A stretch of DNA of 22,463 nt, from the IMG/VR virus record IMGVR_UViG_3300015371_001884, positions 1-22,463 of that record. The stretch is one strand, 5' to 3'. The translations under genes and the position numbers were made by a program. Under the pieces are notes generated by a model. It made no database searches. It saw only the letters and a list, made by a program, of their open reading frames with translations, and was not told the DNA's origin. Shown in pieces: positions 5,095 through 22,059 of the stretch. The DNA is from a virus. Every line of letters begins with the position of its first letter. The stretch's first letter is position 1.

Positions 5095-5586
5095 TTACTC
5101 CTTCCGCAGGCTGCGCCAGTGCTGCTCGTGCCACACGGCGAGGCGGCGGCAATGCGCGCAGCGGATGTAGCACGGCCACGCGACCACCAGCCGCGCGTCG
5201 ACCAGGATGAAGTGCTGGCACCAGCAGCAGGTGAACAGCCGGTGATCGGTCGTCGGCGGCGCCGGCTTCGGCTTCTCGGTGCGGACCACTTGTCGATACT
5301 CCCCGTCGGGCTGGGCGATGGTCGGCACCCCAGGGCTGGGGTTCAGCGGGCACCGGCGGAAGCCGCGCACGAACGGGGCGACCCGGGGATCGCCGCTGCG
5401 GAAGCCGACCGTCAGGTCGACCGCCGAGTGCTGACCGACGTTCTGCGCGCCGGCCACCAGGAGCGCGTCGATCCGTTCGTACATCGGGCCGGCGAACCAG
5501 TGCGCGTTGAACTCGTGCCGCTCGGCCTCGGTCGGGATGTGCGCCGGGCTGGGTGATCGGAAGCCGCGCCGCCGGGCGAGCGCCAT
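5095..5586 (-). CDS. Hypothetical protein with C-terminal zinc ribbon
   Basis: A 163-aa protein starting MALARRRGFRSPSPAHIPTE at ATG 5584-5586, overlapping the methyltransferase stop (TGATG). The same frame is open far upstream, but that part only mirrors the methyltransferase gene. Residues 20-105 have no recognisable domain. Residues 119-147 form a ribbon, FTCCWCQHFILVD...YIRCAHCRR, with paired CxxC knuckles 20 residues apart and a Trp/His-rich tail (VWHEQHWRSL). Metal binding is likely; the role is unknown. It sits between the methyltransferase and another zinc-ribbon gene, so a DNA- or RNA-related job is plausible. Confidence 0.78.
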   Translation of the reverse strand: MALARRRGFRSPSPAHIPTEAERHEFNAHWFAGPMYERIDALLVAGAQNVGQHSAVDLTVGFRSGDPRVAPFVRGFRRCPLNPSPGVPTIAQPDGEYRQVVRTEKPKPAPPTTDHRLFTCCWCQHFILVDARLVVAWPCYIRCAHCRRLAVWHEQHWRSLRKE

Positions 5587-6944
5587 CACGCCTCCTTCGG
5601 GCGCCGGGGCGCCTTCGCCACCTTCGCGCGCCGCCGTTCCGGCTTCACGCCGGTGAACTTCTCGAACCGCTTCACGATCACGTCGCAATAGATGGGGTCC
5701 AGCTCCATCAGCCGCGCGACGCGGTTGTTCATCTGGCACCCGATCAGCGTCGACCCGCTGCCGCCGAACAGGTCGAGGACCAGTTCGTCGGGCCGCGACG
5801 AGAACGTGAGCGCCTTGGCGCACAGTTCGACCGGCTTCTCGGTCAGGTGCAGCATCGCGGTGTGGGTGAGCTTCTTGGCCTGCCAGAGGTCGGTGGCGTT
5901 GGGCGGCCCGAAGTAGCGGTGCGGCTTGCCCTCGCGCCAGCCGTAGAACGCCATCTCGTAGGCGAACATCATGTCGCTGCGGGTCAGGACCGGATGCATC
6001 TTGTCCCAGACGATGACCTGCGACGGGTGGAGGTGCGCCGTCGAGAACGCCAGCGGGTAGGCGCCCAGGTTCATGAAGCCCGACCAGCAGTAGAACGTGT
6101 GGCCGGGCCGCAGCACGCGCGCGATCTGCGTGCACCACCCGATCAGCAGCGCCGCGAACGCCTTGTCGCCGACCCAGTCGTTCAGCAGCGGCCGGTCCTT
6201 GGCGCGCATCGCCTGATCGGTTTTCTTCAGCCCGACCGCCTTGCGGCCCCACCGCTGCTTGTTGCTGACCATCGCGTTGTTCGAACGCGGCTCCACCTTC
6301 ACGTTGTAGGGCGGGTCGGTGTAGACCAGATCGATGCCGGGGTCGCCCTCCAGCAGGCGGTCGACGTCGGCCGGGTCGCCGGCATCGCCGCACACCAGCC
6401 GATGCCGCCCGAGCAGGTAGAGGTCGCCGCGCTGCGTCTCGGCCACCTTCGGCGCCTCGGGCACGTCGTCGGGATCGGTGAGCCCGTCCTCGGGCGCCGG
6501 GTTGAGCAGCCGCGCGAGGTCCTTCTCCTGGAAGCCGAACAGCGTCATGTCGACGTTGCCGGCCACGCCCTGCAGCTCCTGGGCAAGGAGTTCGACGTGC
6601 CACGTCGCCAGCTCGCTGGTCTTGTTGTCGGCGATGCGATAGGCGCGGGCCTGATCGTCCGTCATGTCGAGGGCGACGTGGACCGGCACCCGTGGCAGCT
6701 CGAGGAGCAGCGCGGCCTTCCAGCGCGTGTGGCCGACGACGATCACGTCGTCCTTGTCGACCACGATGGGCTGCCGGAAGCCGAAGTGCTTGATGCTCTC
6801 CGCGACCGACGCGATGGCGCCCTCGTTCACGCGCGGGTTGGTCGCGTAGGGCTTCAGGGTGTGCGGGTCGCGCCACTCGACGGTCCAGTGCTTCAGGAGC
6901 GGGTCGCTGGCGGCTTCGACGGCGGCAACAGTGGCGGTGGTCAT
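5586..6944 (-). CDS. ParB/Srx-domain fused to DNA adenine/cytosine-N4 methyltransferase
   Basis: A 452-aa fusion. Residues 25-110 form a ParB/Srx-like N-terminal domain (LKPYATNPRVNEGAIASVAE, then GHTRWKAA in the place of the ParB 'GERRxRA' nucleotide box, then DNKTSE). Residues about 180-430 are an S-adenosylmethionine-dependent amino-methyltransferase: catalytic motif IV DPPY at 210-213 precedes the AdoMet-binding motif DLFGGSGS at 391-398, the order of the beta class (N6_N4_Mtase). Such fusions occur in many phages and modify phage DNA, often against host restriction. No cognate restriction enzyme is adjacent. The start overlaps the upstream 59-aa gene by ATGA. Substrate base and target sequence cannot be read from the sequence. 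Confidence 0.93.
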   Translation of the reverse strand: MTTATVAAVEAASDPLLKHWTVEWRDPHTLKPYATNPRVNEGAIASVAESIKHFGFRQPIVVDKDDVIVVGHTRWKAALLLELPRVPVHVALDMTDDQARAYRIADNKTSELATWHVELLAQELQGVAGNVDMTLFGFQEKDLARLLNPAPEDGLTDPDDVPEAPKVAETQRGDLYLLGRHRLVCGDAGDPADVDRLLEGDPGIDLVYTDPPYNVKVEPRSNNAMVSNKQRWGRKAVGLKKTDQAMRAKDRPLLNDWVGDKAFAALLIGWCTQIARVLRPGHTFYCWSGFMNLGAYPLAFSTAHLHPSQVIVWDKMHPVLTRSDMMFAYEMAFYGWREGKPHRYFGPPNATDLWQAKKLTHTAMLHLTEKPVELCAKALTFSSRPDELVLDLFGGSGSTLIGCQMNNRVARLMELDPIYCDVIVKRFEKFTGVKPERRRAKVAKAPRRPKEA

Positions 6945-8933: not shown

Positions 8934-9365
8934 TCACTTCCGGGCTCCGTGATGCGAGACGTGAAACGGCTGGTTGAACAGGCGTCGCCCAATCGAACAC
9001 TCGCAGGCGTCCTCGCGGTCGCCCGGCATCTGGCGGTAGCCGCAGTCGGCGCAGAGCGGACAGGTCCGGTCACACGCCCTCAGGGCCTGCTGCATCGCCA
9101 GCTCCAGGCTGGCGCTCGTGCAGGTCCAGTCGCCGTGGGCGAAGTTGCGCACGATGGAGCGCATCACGCGCTGGTAGATGAACGGGTGCGGAATCCGGTC
9201 GTCCAGGTGGTGGCGCAGGAGCGCGCGCGCCAGCTCCGCGCAGGCGGCGCCCTCGTAGCCCCACTCGAACGCCTGGGCGTGCGTGCCTTCAACCAACAGC
9301 AGCGCCCCGTCCACCGTCACCTGGGTCCGACCGTCGCTGCTCCGATGACCTGCGTAGGCGGACAT
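8934..9365 (-). CDS. DUF6166-like protein with Cys-rich tail
   Basis: A 143-aa protein, start ATG 9365 with a near-ideal GGAGGAGG ribosome site at 7 nt. The N-terminal part, TVDGALLLVEG ... FEWGYEGAACAELARALL, followed by an 'F-I-Y-Q-R-V' stretch and ASLELAMQQAL, matches what I recall of DUF6166, a small alpha/beta family of unknown role in mobile elements. The C-terminal part adds a cysteine cluster (ACDRTCPLCADCGYRQ ... ACECSIGRRL) that may bind a metal. It precedes the HNH gene by 6 bp. The family assignment is from memory and should be treated as probable. Confidence 0.72.
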   Translation of the reverse strand: MSAYAGHRSSDGRTQVTVDGALLLVEGTHAQAFEWGYEGAACAELARALLRHHLDDRIPHPFIYQRVMRSIVRNFAHGDWTCTSASLELAMQQALRACDRTCPLCADCGYRQMPGDREDACECSIGRRLFNQPFHVSHHGARK

Positions 9366-9561
9366 GGTTCGCCTCCTCCCCGTCCTCGATGGCGTCGTGG
9401 TAAATCTGGCCGACCTCGCGCAGGGCGTAGCGCAGCGAGCCCATCTGGCCCGCGACGGCCGGGACCTGCTTCCGGCTGAGGATGCTCAGCACCTGATCGA
9501 GCGCTTCGGCGTCCTCGACGAGCGTGCGCAGGGTGGCTTCGGGTACGGCGATGCAACGCAT
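9289..9561 (-). CDS. Small helical hypothetical protein
   Basis: A 90-aa protein starting MRCIAVPEATLRTLVEDAEA three bases after the initiator-like gene. Residues 8-60 are predicted helical with alternating Leu/Val and charges (LDQVLSILSRKQVP, LRYALREVGQIYHD), compatible with a helical bundle or coiled coil. The last 25 residues are Arg/Gly rich and overlap the DUF6166-like gene by 77 bp in another frame. No known family recognised. Position directly after the replication gene invites, but does not prove, a replication-accessory role such as a helicase loader; it is too short for lambda P-like proteins. Confidence 0.65.
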   Translation of the reverse strand: MRCIAVPEATLRTLVEDAEALDQVLSILSRKQVPAVAGQMGSLRYALREVGQIYHDAIEDGEEANHVRLRRSSEQRRSDPGDGGRGAAVG

Positions 9562-9564
9562 GGA

Positions 9565-10374
9565 TCACGCTCGCTTGAGTTGGCGGGCCATCCGGGCGTC
9601 GCTGAGGACGCGGCCGCACAGGTTGCCGTCGTAGCCCGCGATGCCGTGCGTGGCGCACAGCGTCTTGAGCGCTTCCATCCGGTCGGTCTCGGGCTCCCGC
9701 TGCAGAGCGCCGACGTGCTGCTGGGCGAGGCGCAGCACCGCCCAGAACGGGCTCGTCCGTGGGCCGCCCGCGTCAGCGGGCGGTGTATTTGTACGTGGAT
9801 CTTTGTACTTGTACTTGATCCGGAGATGTGTTCGTGGAACCGTTCCGCGAACCGTGCCCGAACCGTTCGACGAACCGTTCGTCGAACCATCCCCGCCCCC
9901 TGGCCCGGTCCGATGGCCCCCGCGCGCACGCCCTGGTTTCGCCTTCGGCGGGGCCTGGAACGCCTGCCGGAAGGCCGGCGGGAAGTCCCGCAGAAACACG
10001 GTGATCGCCGTGCCGATGATGTCGCGGAGCCCGCACTCCGGCACCTCGTGGTCATACGCCTTTCGCCAGCCGCGCACGACGTTCGGGTTGGACGGCTTGT
10101 TGTGGTTGAGTGCGTTCGGCAGCCAGATCAGATCCCCCTCGTAGGCGACCATCCCGGCCTCCGCGAGCGCCGCGACCTGCATCAGGCCGGCACGCTGCGA
10201 CCACCCGAATTGTGTAAAAACTGTGGAAAAGTTGTGCCTGATCACGCCGGGGATCAGCGTCCGCTCCGGGCACGTCAGCAGGTAGAGGAACAGGAACTGC
10301 GGGTTCGGCGGCGGCGGGCCAAACTCGCGGAACTGCCGGTCGTGCCAGAGCCGAAGATCGACGCGTGCGTACAT
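9565..10374 (-). CDS. Phage replication initiator-like protein (candidate origin inside the gene)
   Basis: A 269-aa protein starting MYARVDLRLWHDRQFREFGP at ATG 10374, with GGGAGG at 8 nt. Residues 1-135 resemble N-terminal helix-turn-helix domains of phage replisome organisers: FLFLYLLTCPERTLIPGVIR, a winged-helix core GWSQRAGLMQVAALAEAGMV, and IWLPNALNHNKPSNPNVVRG. Residues 140-205 are a low-complexity Gly/Ser/Thr/Lys linker, then a helical C-terminal domain (SPFWAVLRLAQQH..., DRMEALKTLC). A domain-linker-domain layout whose linker DNA is a repeat array mirrors lambda O. DNA repeats and DnaA-box matches lie within the gene (separate entries). No helicase or primase motif is seen. Confidence 0.75.
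   Translation of the reverse strand: MYARVDLRLWHDRQFREFGPPPPNPQFLFLYLLTCPERTLIPGVIRHNFSTVFTQFGWSQRAGLMQVAALAEAGMVAYEGDLIWLPNALNHNKPSNPNVVRGWRKAYDHEVPECGLRDIIGTAITVFLRDFPPAFRQAFQAPPKAKPGRARGGHRTGPGGGDGSTNGSSNGSGTVRGTVPRTHLRIKYKYKDPRTNTPPADAGGPRTSPFWAVLRLAQQHVGALQREPETDRMEALKTLCATHGIAGYDGNLCGRVLSDARMARQLKRA
9784..9828. other. AT-rich tract beside the iterons (candidate DNA-unwinding element)
   Basis: Within otherwise very GC-rich coding DNA this stretch reads GTATTTGTAC, GATCTTTGTACTTGTACTTG and so on, with the element TTGTAC repeated three times. It encodes the KYKYK part of the initiator linker. It lies just downstream of the iteron array in the direction of the gene, the same order as iterons and AT-rich region in lambda ori. 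Origin function is inferred. Confidence 0.45.
9837..9892. repeat. Five iteron-like repeats of about 12 bp within the initiator gene
   Basis: GAACC begins at 9837, 9849, 9860, 9872 and 9884 (spacing 12, 11, 12, 12). The best units read CGAACCGTTCG, an 11-bp near-palindrome that could bind a dimer. They encode the Gly/Ser/Asn/Thr linker of the initiator-like protein, and the 11-bp step breaks the codon phase, which argues that DNA sequence rather than peptide repeat is being kept. A candidate initiator-binding array. Confidence 0.6.
10211..10230 (-). other. Two direct DnaA-box matches
   Basis: On the minus strand TTTTCCACA (10222-10230) and TTTTACACA (10211-10219) both match the DnaA consensus TTWTNCACA exactly and follow each other 11 bp apart in the same orientation. 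They lie in an A/T-rich island within the initiator gene (codons about 49-54). Together with the iterons about 320 bp away they suggest a DnaA-assisted phage origin. Confidence 0.5.
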
Positions 10375-10390
10375 GGGCGGGCCTCCCAGG

Positions 10391-10684
10391 TCAGTGCTTG
10401 GTGCGCTTCCGGGCGGCCGGCCGCCCTCGGCGCCGGCGGGTGGGCGCCTCGGGCTCCGGGACGGGCTGGTCCTCACCGACGGGGGTCCAGTCGTCCTCTT
10501 GAATCGTGGCGTCGAGGTCGGTCTGCTTCCAGAGCAGCACGCGGCCGGGCGACCGGCGCCGCGCTTTGATGCGCAGGCGGCGGGCCCACTGGCGGAAGGT
10601 CCGCACCGTGTGGAAGCCCATGTAGCGGGCGGCGGTCTTGCTGTCGAAGTAGACGCTCTCGGGGGCTTCCACGGCGTCGATCAT
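10391..10684 (-). CDS. HTH_17 DNA-binding protein, first gene of the replication operon
   Basis: A 97-aa protein, ATG 10684 with GGGAGA at 8 nt. Residues 10-52 form a MerR/excisionase-type HTH: VYFDSKTAARYMGFHTVRTF then RQWARRLRIKARRR and GRVLLWKQTDLDA, where the last strand-helix is the wing typical of HTH_17. The C-terminal 40 residues are acidic then strongly basic (RRRRGRPAARKRTKH), probably a DNA-contacting tail. It is the first gene after the 10685-11107 control region and 16 bp before the initiator-like gene, so an early regulator, or an excisionase given the integrase upstream, are both reasonable. Confidence 0.82.
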   Translation of the reverse strand: MIDAVEAPESVYFDSKTAARYMGFHTVRTFRQWARRLRIKARRRSPGRVLLWKQTDLDATIQEDDWTPVGEDQPVPEPEAPTRRRRGRPAARKRTKH

Positions 10685-10719
10685 TGGTGCATCTCCCAGG
10701 GCAACCTACGGGGACACCC

Positions 10720-10743
10720 TGTATAGCAAATCCTTAGCAGGAT
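10720..10743 (-). promoter_or_regulatory. Promoter/operator motif upstream of the replication operon
   Basis: On the minus strand 10739-10720 reads TGCTAAGGATTTGCTATACA, ending in a -10-like TATACA and containing two TGCTA units 11 bp apart. The overlapping + strand 10730-10743 is the palindrome ATCCT-TAGC-AGGAT. The same arrangement recurs at 16783-16802 and, with one more base, at 13366-13386 and 13623-13644. It lies 36 bp upstream of the HTH gene start. A -35 element is weak. Confidence 0.5.
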
Positions 10744-11000
10744 CGGAAGGCACAAGATGTAGGGGGCCTTCGTCCTCTGCGCCGAGGCGAGCGTAGGAAG
10801 GGATGACCAGACGCCCGGCGCCCCCCGGAGCGATTGGGGGGCGTCGGTTGGGCGACGGTAGCGACCCCCCGGGCTCGGAGCGAACGTCGGGCAACGTCGC
10901 GGCCCGGCGAGGCCGGCTGGCGTCGGCTACGGAGGCGCGGGGAAAAGTCGCGGCTGGCCCGGAGGCGGAATATTACGCAGGCATGACGTGCGGCCGCAAG
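10744..11000. other. Gene-free GC-rich spacer
   Basis: I see no convincing gene here on either strand. It holds an 8-bp hairpin (CGCCCCCC at 10819-10826 and GGGGGGCG at 10836-10843) and a block, 10857-10892, that resembles 21183-21228 in the gene-free right-hand region (GGTAGCGACCCCCC and AACGTCGGGC in the same order). Short open frames here have no ribosome site and no recognisable composition. Confidence 0.5.
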
Positions 11001-11026
11001 CCCAAAAAGCGCCCTCGTGGGCGCTT
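11001..11026 (-). terminator. Rho-independent terminator ending the integrase operon
   Basis: A perfect 8-bp stem (AAGCGCCC at 11007-11014 with GGGCGCTT at 11019-11026) and a TCGT loop. Read on the minus strand it is followed by a run of five T (11008-11004), two of them in the stem. It lies about 80 bp downstream of the 137-aa gene stop, isolating the integrase operon from the replication operon. Confidence 0.75.
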
Positions 11027-11077
11027 ATAGGACTAAGGTCGTACAACCAGAGGTAAACGGCTGAGTTCAGGGGAGAT

Positions 11078-11100
11078 GGGGGCGCCCGGGCGGCGCCCCC
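11078..11100 (-). terminator. GC hairpin just after the 137-aa gene
   Basis: GGGGGCGCC (11078-11086) pairs perfectly with GGCGCCCCC (11092-11100) around a 5-nt loop, 8 bp past the stop codon. No T tract follows, so it is more likely an RNA-stabilising or pause hairpin that assists the stronger terminator at 11001-11026. Confidence 0.45.
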
Positions 11101-15007: not shown

Positions 15008-16657
15008 TTACAGAGCGGCGAGGAGGGCGTCGCGGTACTCCTCGATGGCGTGCTGCGCGGCGGTCTGCGGCGCGACGTCGCCGCCGATGTCCGCCACGGT
15101 CTCCAGCGCGTCGTCGGCCAGCGTCTGGATCGTTTCGGCGCTGACGCCGCCGCACGCGGGCGGCTCCACGGGCGGCTCGATGGGCGGCTCGATGGGTTCG
15201 GTGGGCGTCCCGAACGCCGCTTCCAGGGCGTCCATGTCGACGCCCAGGCCGATGAACGGGCTGCCCTCCACGAGGCGGAAGTTCCCGGTCGACGGGTCCA
15301 CGAACTGGTCCGCCAGCTCCGCGCAGCTCGGGAAGTGCTGGCCGGGGTACTGGTCATAGACCTTCGGCGTGCAGCCGGCGAGCACGTTGTCGGTGAACAC
15401 GCTGGCCGGGTAGCCCTCGACGTTCGCCGCGTACCGCTGCAGCGCCGGGTTGCCCTCGCCCACCTGATCCCCGAACACGCCGTAGGTGTCGTAGGGGTCC
15501 ATCGACTTCTGGACGATGTTGCCCTTGAACACGAAGCCCGGCATCGGGTCGCCGCTGAGGGCGGTGATGTTCCCCGTGATCGAGCCCGCGCCCATCGCCG
15601 TGTTGTTGATGATCTGCAGGTTGCGGGGCGCGCCGGTGATCTGCACGAACACGCCGGCGCCCAGGTTGCCGTTCGGCGCCTTCCAGTCCTGGCGGTCGAT
15701 CTCGTAAATCAGGTTGTTGCGGATGACCACGTCGTCCATCGGCGTGCTCGGGTTGACGCCGCCGCTGCCGGTCTGATTGTCGAGCCCGAGGATATTGAAC
15801 ACGCTCGCCACGTTGCGGACGATGTTGTGCTCGAAGAGGACGTGCTGAATCGTGCTCCACGGGGCGTTCGCGCTGTTGGCCCGGACCGTAAAGACGATTC
15901 CGAAGCCCGACTGCCCATCGACCCAGTTGTTCTCGAACAGGTTGCCCTGGGCGACGACGTTCTTCGCGTTCTTCAGCTCGAACAGGTTCTTGATGCCGGC
16001 GATGGTGCCGTGGTGGTCGAGCGGCCGCGTGACCGTGTTGCGCTTGAACGTGATGTCGCTCGGGATGAGGTTCGGGATCGCCGCCCCCGCGCCCCCGAAC
16101 AGCACGCCGATGCTGCCGGCCTCGATGTAGTTGTCCTCGATGGTGAACGGGCCGGGGCCGTTCCAGCCGCAAATGGCCTGCGTCTCCACGCCCGTGTAGC
16201 GGATGCCCTGGATGCAGCAGCCGCGAACGGTCGTCGCGGCGCTGTTCAACTGGATGCCGCGCTTGGCGCGGGTGGTGGCGGTGATCGCGCAGCGGTCGAA
16301 CGCGAGGTCGCGCGGCAGGCCCGCGAGGTCCGCGATCAGCCCGTCGCCCAGCAGGACGACGTCGCAGTCGATGCTGTTGGCGGCGAGGTGGATGCCGCTC
16401 AGCCGCCACCCCGACGCTGGCCCCACCGTGCGCAGGGCGGCGCCGTTCGTGGTGGCGCGCAGCGTCGGCAGGCCGGCAACGTCCTGCGGCGTCAGTGGGC
16501 GCTCGGGCAGCACGCCCGAGGTGGTCATGGTGACGGGACCGGCCGCCGAGAAGCAGCCCTCGAAGGTCGCACCGGCCTCCAGGACCAGGACGTCACCGGG
16601 AGCGAACGCGTCGATAGCCGCCTGGAGATTGCCGCCCGCGTTGACAGGGATGTTCAT
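15008..16657 (-). CDS. Tailspike/tail fibre with right-handed parallel beta-helix
   Basis: A 549-aa protein. The N terminus MNIPVNAGGNLQAAIDAFAP followed by GDVLVLEAGATFEG is the capping segment of pectate-lyase-like beta-helices. Residues about 70-420 carry repeated rungs ending in N-[ILV]-[IV] or NN turns (DITFKRNTV, VAQGNLFENN, HVLFEHNIVRN, DVVIRNNLIYE, LQIINNTAMG, FVFKGNIVQ). A Pro/Glu/Ile linker at about 485-500 (TEPIEPPIEPPVEPP) joins a 49-aa helical, acidic C-terminal domain. Such proteins bind or degrade surface polysaccharide on the host. No catalytic residues can be assigned. The start ATG has GGAAGG upstream. It heads the minus-strand block ending at 13680. Confidence 0.82.
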   Translation of the reverse strand: MNIPVNAGGNLQAAIDAFAPGDVLVLEAGATFEGCFSAAGPVTMTTSGVLPERPLTPQDVAGLPTLRATTNGAALRTVGPASGWRLSGIHLAANSIDCDVVLLGDGLIADLAGLPRDLAFDRCAITATTRAKRGIQLNSAATTVRGCCIQGIRYTGVETQAICGWNGPGPFTIEDNYIEAGSIGVLFGGAGAAIPNLIPSDITFKRNTVTRPLDHHGTIAGIKNLFELKNAKNVVAQGNLFENNWVDGQSGFGIVFTVRANSANAPWSTIQHVLFEHNIVRNVASVFNILGLDNQTGSGGVNPSTPMDDVVIRNNLIYEIDRQDWKAPNGNLGAGVFVQITGAPRNLQIINNTAMGAGSITGNITALSGDPMPGFVFKGNIVQKSMDPYDTYGVFGDQVGEGNPALQRYAANVEGYPASVFTDNVLAGCTPKVYDQYPGQHFPSCAELADQFVDPSTGNFRLVEGSPFIGLGVDMDALEAAFGTPTEPIEPPIEPPVEPPACGGVSAETIQTLADDALETVADIGGDVAPQTAAQHAIEEYRDALLAAL

Positions 16658-21335: not shown

Positions 21336-21364
21336 TTGCTGCGGCCGCTACGCTATGCCATACT
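21336..21364 (+). promoter_or_regulatory. Candidate promoter of the HARE-HTH gene
   Basis: TTGCTG (21336-21341), a 17-bp spacer and CATACT (21359-21364) form a weak sigma-70-like pair. CTATGCCATAC (21353-21363) overlaps the -10 and echoes GTATGGCATAC at 21088-21098, so it may be an operator. Confidence 0.35.
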
Positions 21365-21426
21365 TACCAAGTCGATTCGATGCGCCCTGCCAATTACGGC
21401 CGGCCCGATACGGCAACCAGGGGGCA

Positions 21427-22059
21427 ATGGCGCCCCCATCCAACGAAATGGATTACGCAATGACCAGCAAGAACGATACCATCCCGGCCGCCGACAAGAT
21501 GAATGCCAAGCAGCGGAAGGCCGCCGAAAAGGCGCGCCGCGCCCAGGCCGGCGCCGGCCCGGTCCCGCCGGCCATCCCGGCCGCGCCCCCGGCCATCCCG
21601 GCGCCGGCCGCGCCCCCGGCCATCCCGGCCGCGCCGGCTACCCCCCCGGCCATCCCGGCGGCCGCGCCGGCCGCCCCGGCCGTATTCCATTGCCCGGCGC
21701 CCGGCTGCGGCGCGCCCATCGAAATCGGCGCCCTGCTCGGCATGGCGGAAATCGAGCAGGCCCTGATCGCGGCCGGATGGCGCGCCCCCCGCGCCGGCCG
21801 CAAGGCCGCGCCGGCCGGCCCGAAGCGTGTTTCGGCGCTCGATGCGGCCGCGCAGGTTTTGGCCGGCGCCGGCGAGCCGATGGGCGCGAAGGCGCTGATC
21901 ACGGCGATGGCGGTTTCGGGCCTTTGGGAATCGCCCGGGGGCGCGACGCCGGATGCCACGCTGGCGGCCGCCATCGTCCGCGAAATCGCTGCGAAGGCCG
22001 ACAAGGCCCGCTTCATCAAGGTCGCGCCCGGCATGTGGATCGCGCGCGCGGCCGCCTAG
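21427..22059 (+). CDS. HARE-HTH domain protein
   Basis: The open frame gives 210 aa from the ATG at 21427 (MAPPSNEMDYAMTSKN...), preceded by AGGGGG; an ATG at 21460 (MTSKNDTIPAADKMNAKQRK) is an equally good start. A basic helix is followed by a Pro/Ala linker of repeated PPAIPAA units (about 45-85 from the first ATG), a segment FHCPAPGCGAPIEIGALLGM, then the C-terminal 75 residues: RVSALDAAAQVLAGAGEPMG, AKALITAMAVSGLWESPGGA, TPDATLAAAIVREIAAK and DKARFIKVAPGMWIA. That is the HARE-HTH winged helix (also in RNA polymerase delta and ASXL), thought to link transcription and DNA. Its copies are, to my recollection, numerous in Planctomycetes. A strong terminator follows. Confidence 0.85.
   Translation: MAPPSNEMDYAMTSKNDTIPAADKMNAKQRKAAEKARRAQAGAGPVPPAIPAAPPAIPAPAAPPAIPAAPATPPAIPAAAPAAPAVFHCPAPGCGAPIEIGALLGMAEIEQALIAAGWRAPRAGRKAAPAGPKRVSALDAAAQVLAGAGEPMGAKALITAMAVSGLWESPGGATPDATLAAAIVREIAAKADKARFIKVAPGMWIARAAA

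Follow-up and report, generated by a model that had tools for sequence, protein, structure and literature searches.

In the logic of ori-lambda, an initiator binds iterons and opens an adjacent tract, and the helicase is brought in (PMC7466680, PMC6022878, PMC5043065). The origin lies within gene O of lambda, as it does in the Stx phages 933W and P27; the initiator has an N-terminal DNA-binding domain, the iterons encode its flexible linker, and the AT-rich unwinding tract lies on the downstream side of the iterons (PMC7466680, PMC6022878). The C-terminal part of lambda O contacts the helicase loader, and gene P comes next (PMC7466680, PMC6022878). A second system with an origin inside the initiator gene is that of the RepA_N initiators, such as that of pSK41 from staphylococci. 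According to the available part of the published account, the Rep boxes occupy the centre of the rep gene, where they code for a linker that is dispensable, an N-terminal winged helix binds the boxes, and a variable C-terminal domain interacts with the host (PMC5703833).

The window, by which we mean the whole stretch of 22,463 bp that was analysed, is a fragment of an uncultured phage. We infer that it very probably contains a phage replication origin embedded in the coding sequence of the phage's own initiator gene. This locus shares with lambda the iterons inside the initiator gene and the AT-rich tract downstream of them, and is also like the RepA_N genes in its domain order and in the central position of its repeats. 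Comparison of homologous sequences supports a conserved layout in which a predicted DNA-binding domain is followed by iterons in the linker, a low-melting tract and a C-terminal domain. The elements in the window, in the direction of the gene, are:

9565..10374, minus strand: replication initiator gene P0001, 269 aa, probable start ATG at 10374, reading frame open to a GTG at 10476
10021..10371, minus strand: winged-helix DNA-binding domain, residues 2-118, matching phage 'DNA replication protein O' and 'primosomal protein' and phrog_25711
10222-10230 and 10211-10219, minus strand: two DnaA-box-like sites, TTTTCCACA and TTTTACACA, 11 bp apart
9757..9882, minus strand: linker codons (residues 165-206, predicted disordered, pLDDT < 50)
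9877..9888, minus strand: iteron 1, GGTTCGACGAAC
9865..9876, minus strand: iteron 2, GGTTCGTCGAAC
9854..9864, minus strand: iteron 3, GGTTCGGGCAC, 11 bp, a step that shifts codon phase
9842..9853, minus strand: iteron 4, GGTTCGCGGAAC
9830..9841, minus strand: iteron 5, GGTTCCACGAAC
9818..9844, minus strand: 27-bp spacer, counted from where the last full core begins up to the hexamer tract, AACGGTTCCACG AACACATCTCCG GAT
9784..9828, minus strand: AT-rich low-melting tract that includes the hexamers; candidate unwinding element
9800..9817, minus strand: tandem hexamers CAAGTA CAAGTA CAAAGA, counterpart of (CAGGAA)n in homologues, here in frame 2 and read as KYKYK
9568..9753, minus strand: C-terminal helical domain of the predicted structure, residues 208-269, presumed to contact a helicase or loader

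The earlier note on this DNA had called the gene an initiator without an alignment, and that assignment is now backed by homology, fold and the gene context of homologues. A tblastn search of isolated phages returned two matches, each covering residues 2-117/118 at about 36% identity. The first was 'DNA replication protein O' of Citrobacter phage Chris1 (residues 2-118, 36%, E 7e-18), whose gene O is flanked by cII-like and P-like genes, and the second was the 'primosomal protein' of phage vB_Apl-pPE4. Among the PHROGs the protein belongs to phrog_25711 (E 4e-12), a family annotated as of unknown function; the DnaD-like helicase loader family phrog_1701 gave a weak profile match (E 0.13). The N-terminal motifs conserved in the family (Y..W.D..F, PG, WLPNA, NVV..W and C.L) are present in the window protein. 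AlphaFold predicted the wHTH domain with confidence, a disordered stretch at residues 165-206 and a helical C-terminus. A fold search of BFVD matched the 'Replisome organizer' of Podoviridae sp. ctrub15 (E 4.8e-8). In a fold search of the PDB, the N-terminal domains of RepA_N initiators scored Z 7.3-7.8 over 85 residues, a longer stretch than any other listed match covered and a score at the same level as that of CRP-type winged helices; the matched chains are 2014 structures that we take to be RepA_N plasmid initiator domains. A sequence search of the PDB with the domain profile found no match, and the Pfam RepA_N profile did not match the window protein at E 1. From these data we conclude that the product of the gene (10374-9565, minus strand) is a replication initiator of the winged-helix type.

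Five repeats at steps of 11-12 bp had been described in the linker codons, and they are present as a head-to-tail array at 9830-9888 on the strand of the gene, with steps of 12, 12, 11 and 12 bp. The 11-bp step breaks codon phase at iteron 3, as had been proposed. The iteron core in the window is 7 bp long and has the form AASSSTT (AACGGTT or close variants), and the last full core, AACGGTT, starts at 9844. Apart from the first few bases of the array, the iterons and the hexamer tract fall within the linker codons 9757..9882. When synonymous codons were redrawn according to the codon usage of the phage itself, with the protein kept, 0.2 copies of GGTTC were expected in the gene compared to the 5 observed, and none of 5000 redraws reached 5. 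A general self-alignment score of the stretch was less extreme, with 5 of 400 redraws equally high.

The AT-rich tract that had been placed at 9784-9828 does lie downstream of the iterons in the gene direction. It is 60% AT compared to a window mean of 30%, and only 0.07% of 45-bp stretches are equally AT-rich. Local stability, which the earlier note had named as a check, was computed, and few parts of the gene melt as easily as the tract, which stands at the 0.6th percentile in the window (family median, 5.7th). Within the tract, at 9817-9800, lie the tandem hexamers, which were absent from the earlier note and number only about 2.5 copies in the window. Immediately past the tract in the gene direction, a GC-rich hairpin of 9 pairs can be drawn at 9763-9784 (GCCGCCCGC-GTCA-GCGGGCGGT). 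A conserved hairpin after the tract was considered as a further element and rejected; it was found in 6 of 86 homologues compared to 1.7% of control segments, an excess that is too weak.

Further upstream in the gene, the two TTWTNCACA matches reported earlier are real and are the only ones in the window, where 0.14 would be expected. We considered the possibility that the embedded origin is real and that host DnaA also acts on it directly through the two TTTTNCACA boxes, making it a DnaA-assisted origin. The pair is improbable by chance, also given the encoded protein (0 of 50000 codon redraws reproduced it), its members are 11 bp apart, and few places in the window are as AT-rich as the one where it sits. 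However, the boxes lie about 320 bp from the iterons, and no such pair was found in any other homologue. We therefore reject a family-wide role for the boxes, which are not part of the conserved design, and consider a direct action of DnaA at this one locus unlikely.

Conservation of the embedded origin was examined in 86 homologues that remained after dereplication. The second contig found with the initiator gene (L002/L007) is 99.9% identical and was therefore of no use as a conservation test. AASSSTT sites are repeated at steps of 11-12 bp in most linkers: 282 sites were counted compared to 73 expected with the proteins held fixed, and 70 of the 86 linkers have at least two. Consecutive sites are spaced by 12 bp in 131 cases, by 11 bp in 9 and by 23-24 bp in 30. 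Pairs at 12 bp occur at 4.62 per kb in the linkers compared to 0.13 per kb elsewhere in the same loci, a difference of about 35-fold. The iterons lie in different reading frames among the homologues and are followed by a tandem tract, usually (CAGGAA)n. This tract reads QEQEQE in most homologues, whereas in four of them (L117, L121, L167 and L199) CAGGAA-type DNA is read as GTGTGT or similar. In the enterobacterial members and in L088, L178, L198 and L200 the tract unit is 7 bp, so that no peptide repeat results.

Counted from where the last full iteron begins to where the tract begins, the distance equals 27 bp in 40 of 69 members; in 65 of the 69 it is 27 bp or differs from this by whole steps of 11-12 bp. 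It is exactly 27 bp in the window, in its nearest relative found (L098, with a (CACCAA)n tract) and in L117, L121 and L167, which are frame-shifted. Across iterons, spacer and tract, members that use different frames stay in register when their DNA is aligned, and the consensus of 72 members is AAggCTTccgcn AAGcCTTccccn AAGgCTaTGcCt AAT CAGGAA CAGGAA CAGGAA CAGGAa. The domain tree places L117 and L121 together with L099, whose tract is in another frame, with only moderate support (87/77); the window is a divergent, long-branch member. As the DNA pattern is kept across all three frames and in the 7-bp versions, it outlives the protein linker. The earlier note would have given up its proposal if homologues kept the linker peptide and lost the DNA repeats; the reverse was found, with the repeats persisting where the peptide changes. 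These comparisons support the view that iterons and tract are conserved as DNA and not as protein. Two variations on the pattern were seen: in three related phages (L261, L265 and L304) a 5-bp AACCC tandem tract replaces the hexamers after the iterons, and in L168 and L267 one initiator gene contains two iteron arrays, before and after the hexamer tract.

The genes next to the homologues are often those of replication. A gene just downstream in more distant homologues encodes a DnaB-like helicase (L144, L141, L087 and L155), a DnaC-like loader (L127 and L128) or another helicase loader (L151), and in an E. coli phage-plasmid the same initiator gene is followed by 'replication protein P'. No helicase or loader match was found downstream in 3 of the 10 homologue loci tested, and none could be recognised in those ORFs of the 22-kb fragment that were tested. 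The window encodes a portal, terminase, capsid, integrase and ParB-methyltransferase, and its full-length nucleotide search against isolated phages returned no match. Cumulative GC skew was rejected as a pointer to the origin; its peak near 16.5 kb lies close to a switch in gene direction and is uninformative for the initiator site.

Several other genes of the window were noted. A DUF6166 protein (8934-9365, minus strand, E 6e-14) lies just downstream of the initiator. A fusion of a ParB N-terminal domain with an N6/N4 DNA methyltransferase (5586-6944, minus strand) adjoins the packaging genes. A right-handed beta-helix protein of 549 aa (15008-16657, minus strand), which may be a tail spike or depolymerase, is on the opposite strand to the next gene, capsid. 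A HARE-HTH domain protein (21355-22059, plus strand, E 9e-12) contains a long stretch of Pro-Ala tandem repeats at 21548-21681.

A winged-helix protein with its own phased sites could also be an autorepressor, and conserved iterons alone would equally fit an operator or other binding site. The iteron array might serve, for example, in autoregulation, in partition or in controlling the copy number of a plasmid-like prophage, and the ParB-methyltransferase fusion carried by this phage would suit such a use. However, the homologues occupy the position of lambda O, beside P, DnaC or DnaB genes, and the sites are in the middle of the gene and not at a promoter; a scan of 9400-11100 confined to sigma-70-like promoters found no site. 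Moreover, tandem tracts that melt easily and keep a fixed phase are a feature of origins and not of operators. We consider it very unlikely that the conserved elements serve one of these other uses.

The embedded-origin reading was also approached from DNA alone, by scanning 2.9 million viral contigs for the pattern. The module of spacer and tract fell inside ORFs with the initiator domain in 54 of 55 testable stretches. Among the matches listed for four iterons at 12 bp, 60 of 110 were in initiator-domain ORFs, and of these 25 had their iterons in frame 0, 27 in frame 1 and 8 in frame 2; the other matches listed included ends of contigs, genes of other families and simple tandem repeats. Downstream of the iterons, the DNA was strongly repetitive at 6 bp in 44 of the 58 initiator-borne arrays among the matches listed, and in these 58 repeats at other lags were rare apart from the harmonic at 12 (5-bp units three times, 7-bp units twice). 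The letters of the hexamer vary by lineage (CAGGAA, CAGGAT, CACCAA, CAGTAA, GAATCT, CCCCGT and others), while its period and place are constant. Six further genes (L283, L272, L294, L332, L339 and L340), which gave no domain-profile match, have linkers of the NPSGNPSGNPS type with the same 12-bp AASSSTT periodicity in their DNA and may represent further initiator families that share this origin design. It is hardly credible that the repeats are a mere coding trace of a flexible low-complexity linker, left by codon preference or replication slippage and with no role as DNA: the linker is predicted to be disordered and is simple in most homologues (QEQEQE, KPSxKPS), and short tandem repeats do expand by slippage, but the tract occurs in each of the three reading frames and its 7-bp units destroy the peptide repeat, the iterons lie in different frames and their 11-bp steps shift the frame, the iteron-tract spacing stays in helical phase across frames, DNA-only searches return to the same initiator, and codon redraws fail to reproduce the repeats.

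We propose that the embedded origin would work as follows. The N-terminal winged-helix domain would bind the helically phased AASSSTT iterons and build a nucleoprotein complex, which would melt the adjacent low-stability tract, whose start keeps a fixed helical phase relative to the last iteron. The initiator or a partner would then capture one strand via the short tandem hexamers, which on the simplest reading would serve the initiator or a helicase partner as a repeated single-strand site. The C-terminal domain, together with the downstream gene, would bring in the helicase or its loader. More tentatively, these loci may form a widespread and largely uncultured class of origin, in which a tandem opening array of 6-bp (5-7 bp) units is held in fixed helical phase with iterons of 11-12 bp, is maintained as DNA in any frame, and would provide a single-strand landing site that sets the loading of initiator or helicase.

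This analysis proposes a function for phrog_25711, and with the DNA signature, sequence alone is enough to locate candidate replication origins in many uncultured phages. Overlapping DNA and protein functions are separable here, because the DNA element persists through changes of frame. The phased tandem hexamers also offer a direct way to test how an initiator selects one strand of a melting origin and keeps hold of it.

A search of the literature outside subscription papers found nothing relevant on the QEQEQE or CAGGAA tract or on this class of in-gene origin. Among described systems, the phage replisome organizers and DnaD-like initiators are related here by fold, through the ctrub15 protein, and by a weak profile match. 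RepA_N initiators differ in belonging to plasmids of low-GC Gram-positive bacteria, and the available part of their account does not mention a hexamer tract. The O protein of Chris1 and the DnaT-like protein of phage-plasmid p727A3-47K are true homologues in the N-terminal domain, and their linkers contain iteron-like repeats and a 7-bp CAG tract; their annotations mark no origin, and they differ from the window protein in a C-terminal part that is DnaT-like by annotation and by matches to phage primosomal proteins. As for lambda itself, its O protein gave a BLASTP E of 0.66 outside the domain and an hhalign probability of 0.3%; gene O has no AASSSTT sites, and lambda lacks such a 6-bp tandem tract. 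Lambda iterons are four inverted repeats of 18-19 bp, bound by dimers and spaced 20-24 bp apart, whereas those of the window are head-to-tail at 11-12 bp with the 7-bp AASSSTT core. The earlier description of the origin as lambda-like thus stands for the layout and not for descent: with different iterons and without detectable homology to lambda O, the embedded origin would work like ori-lambda without being a member of that family.
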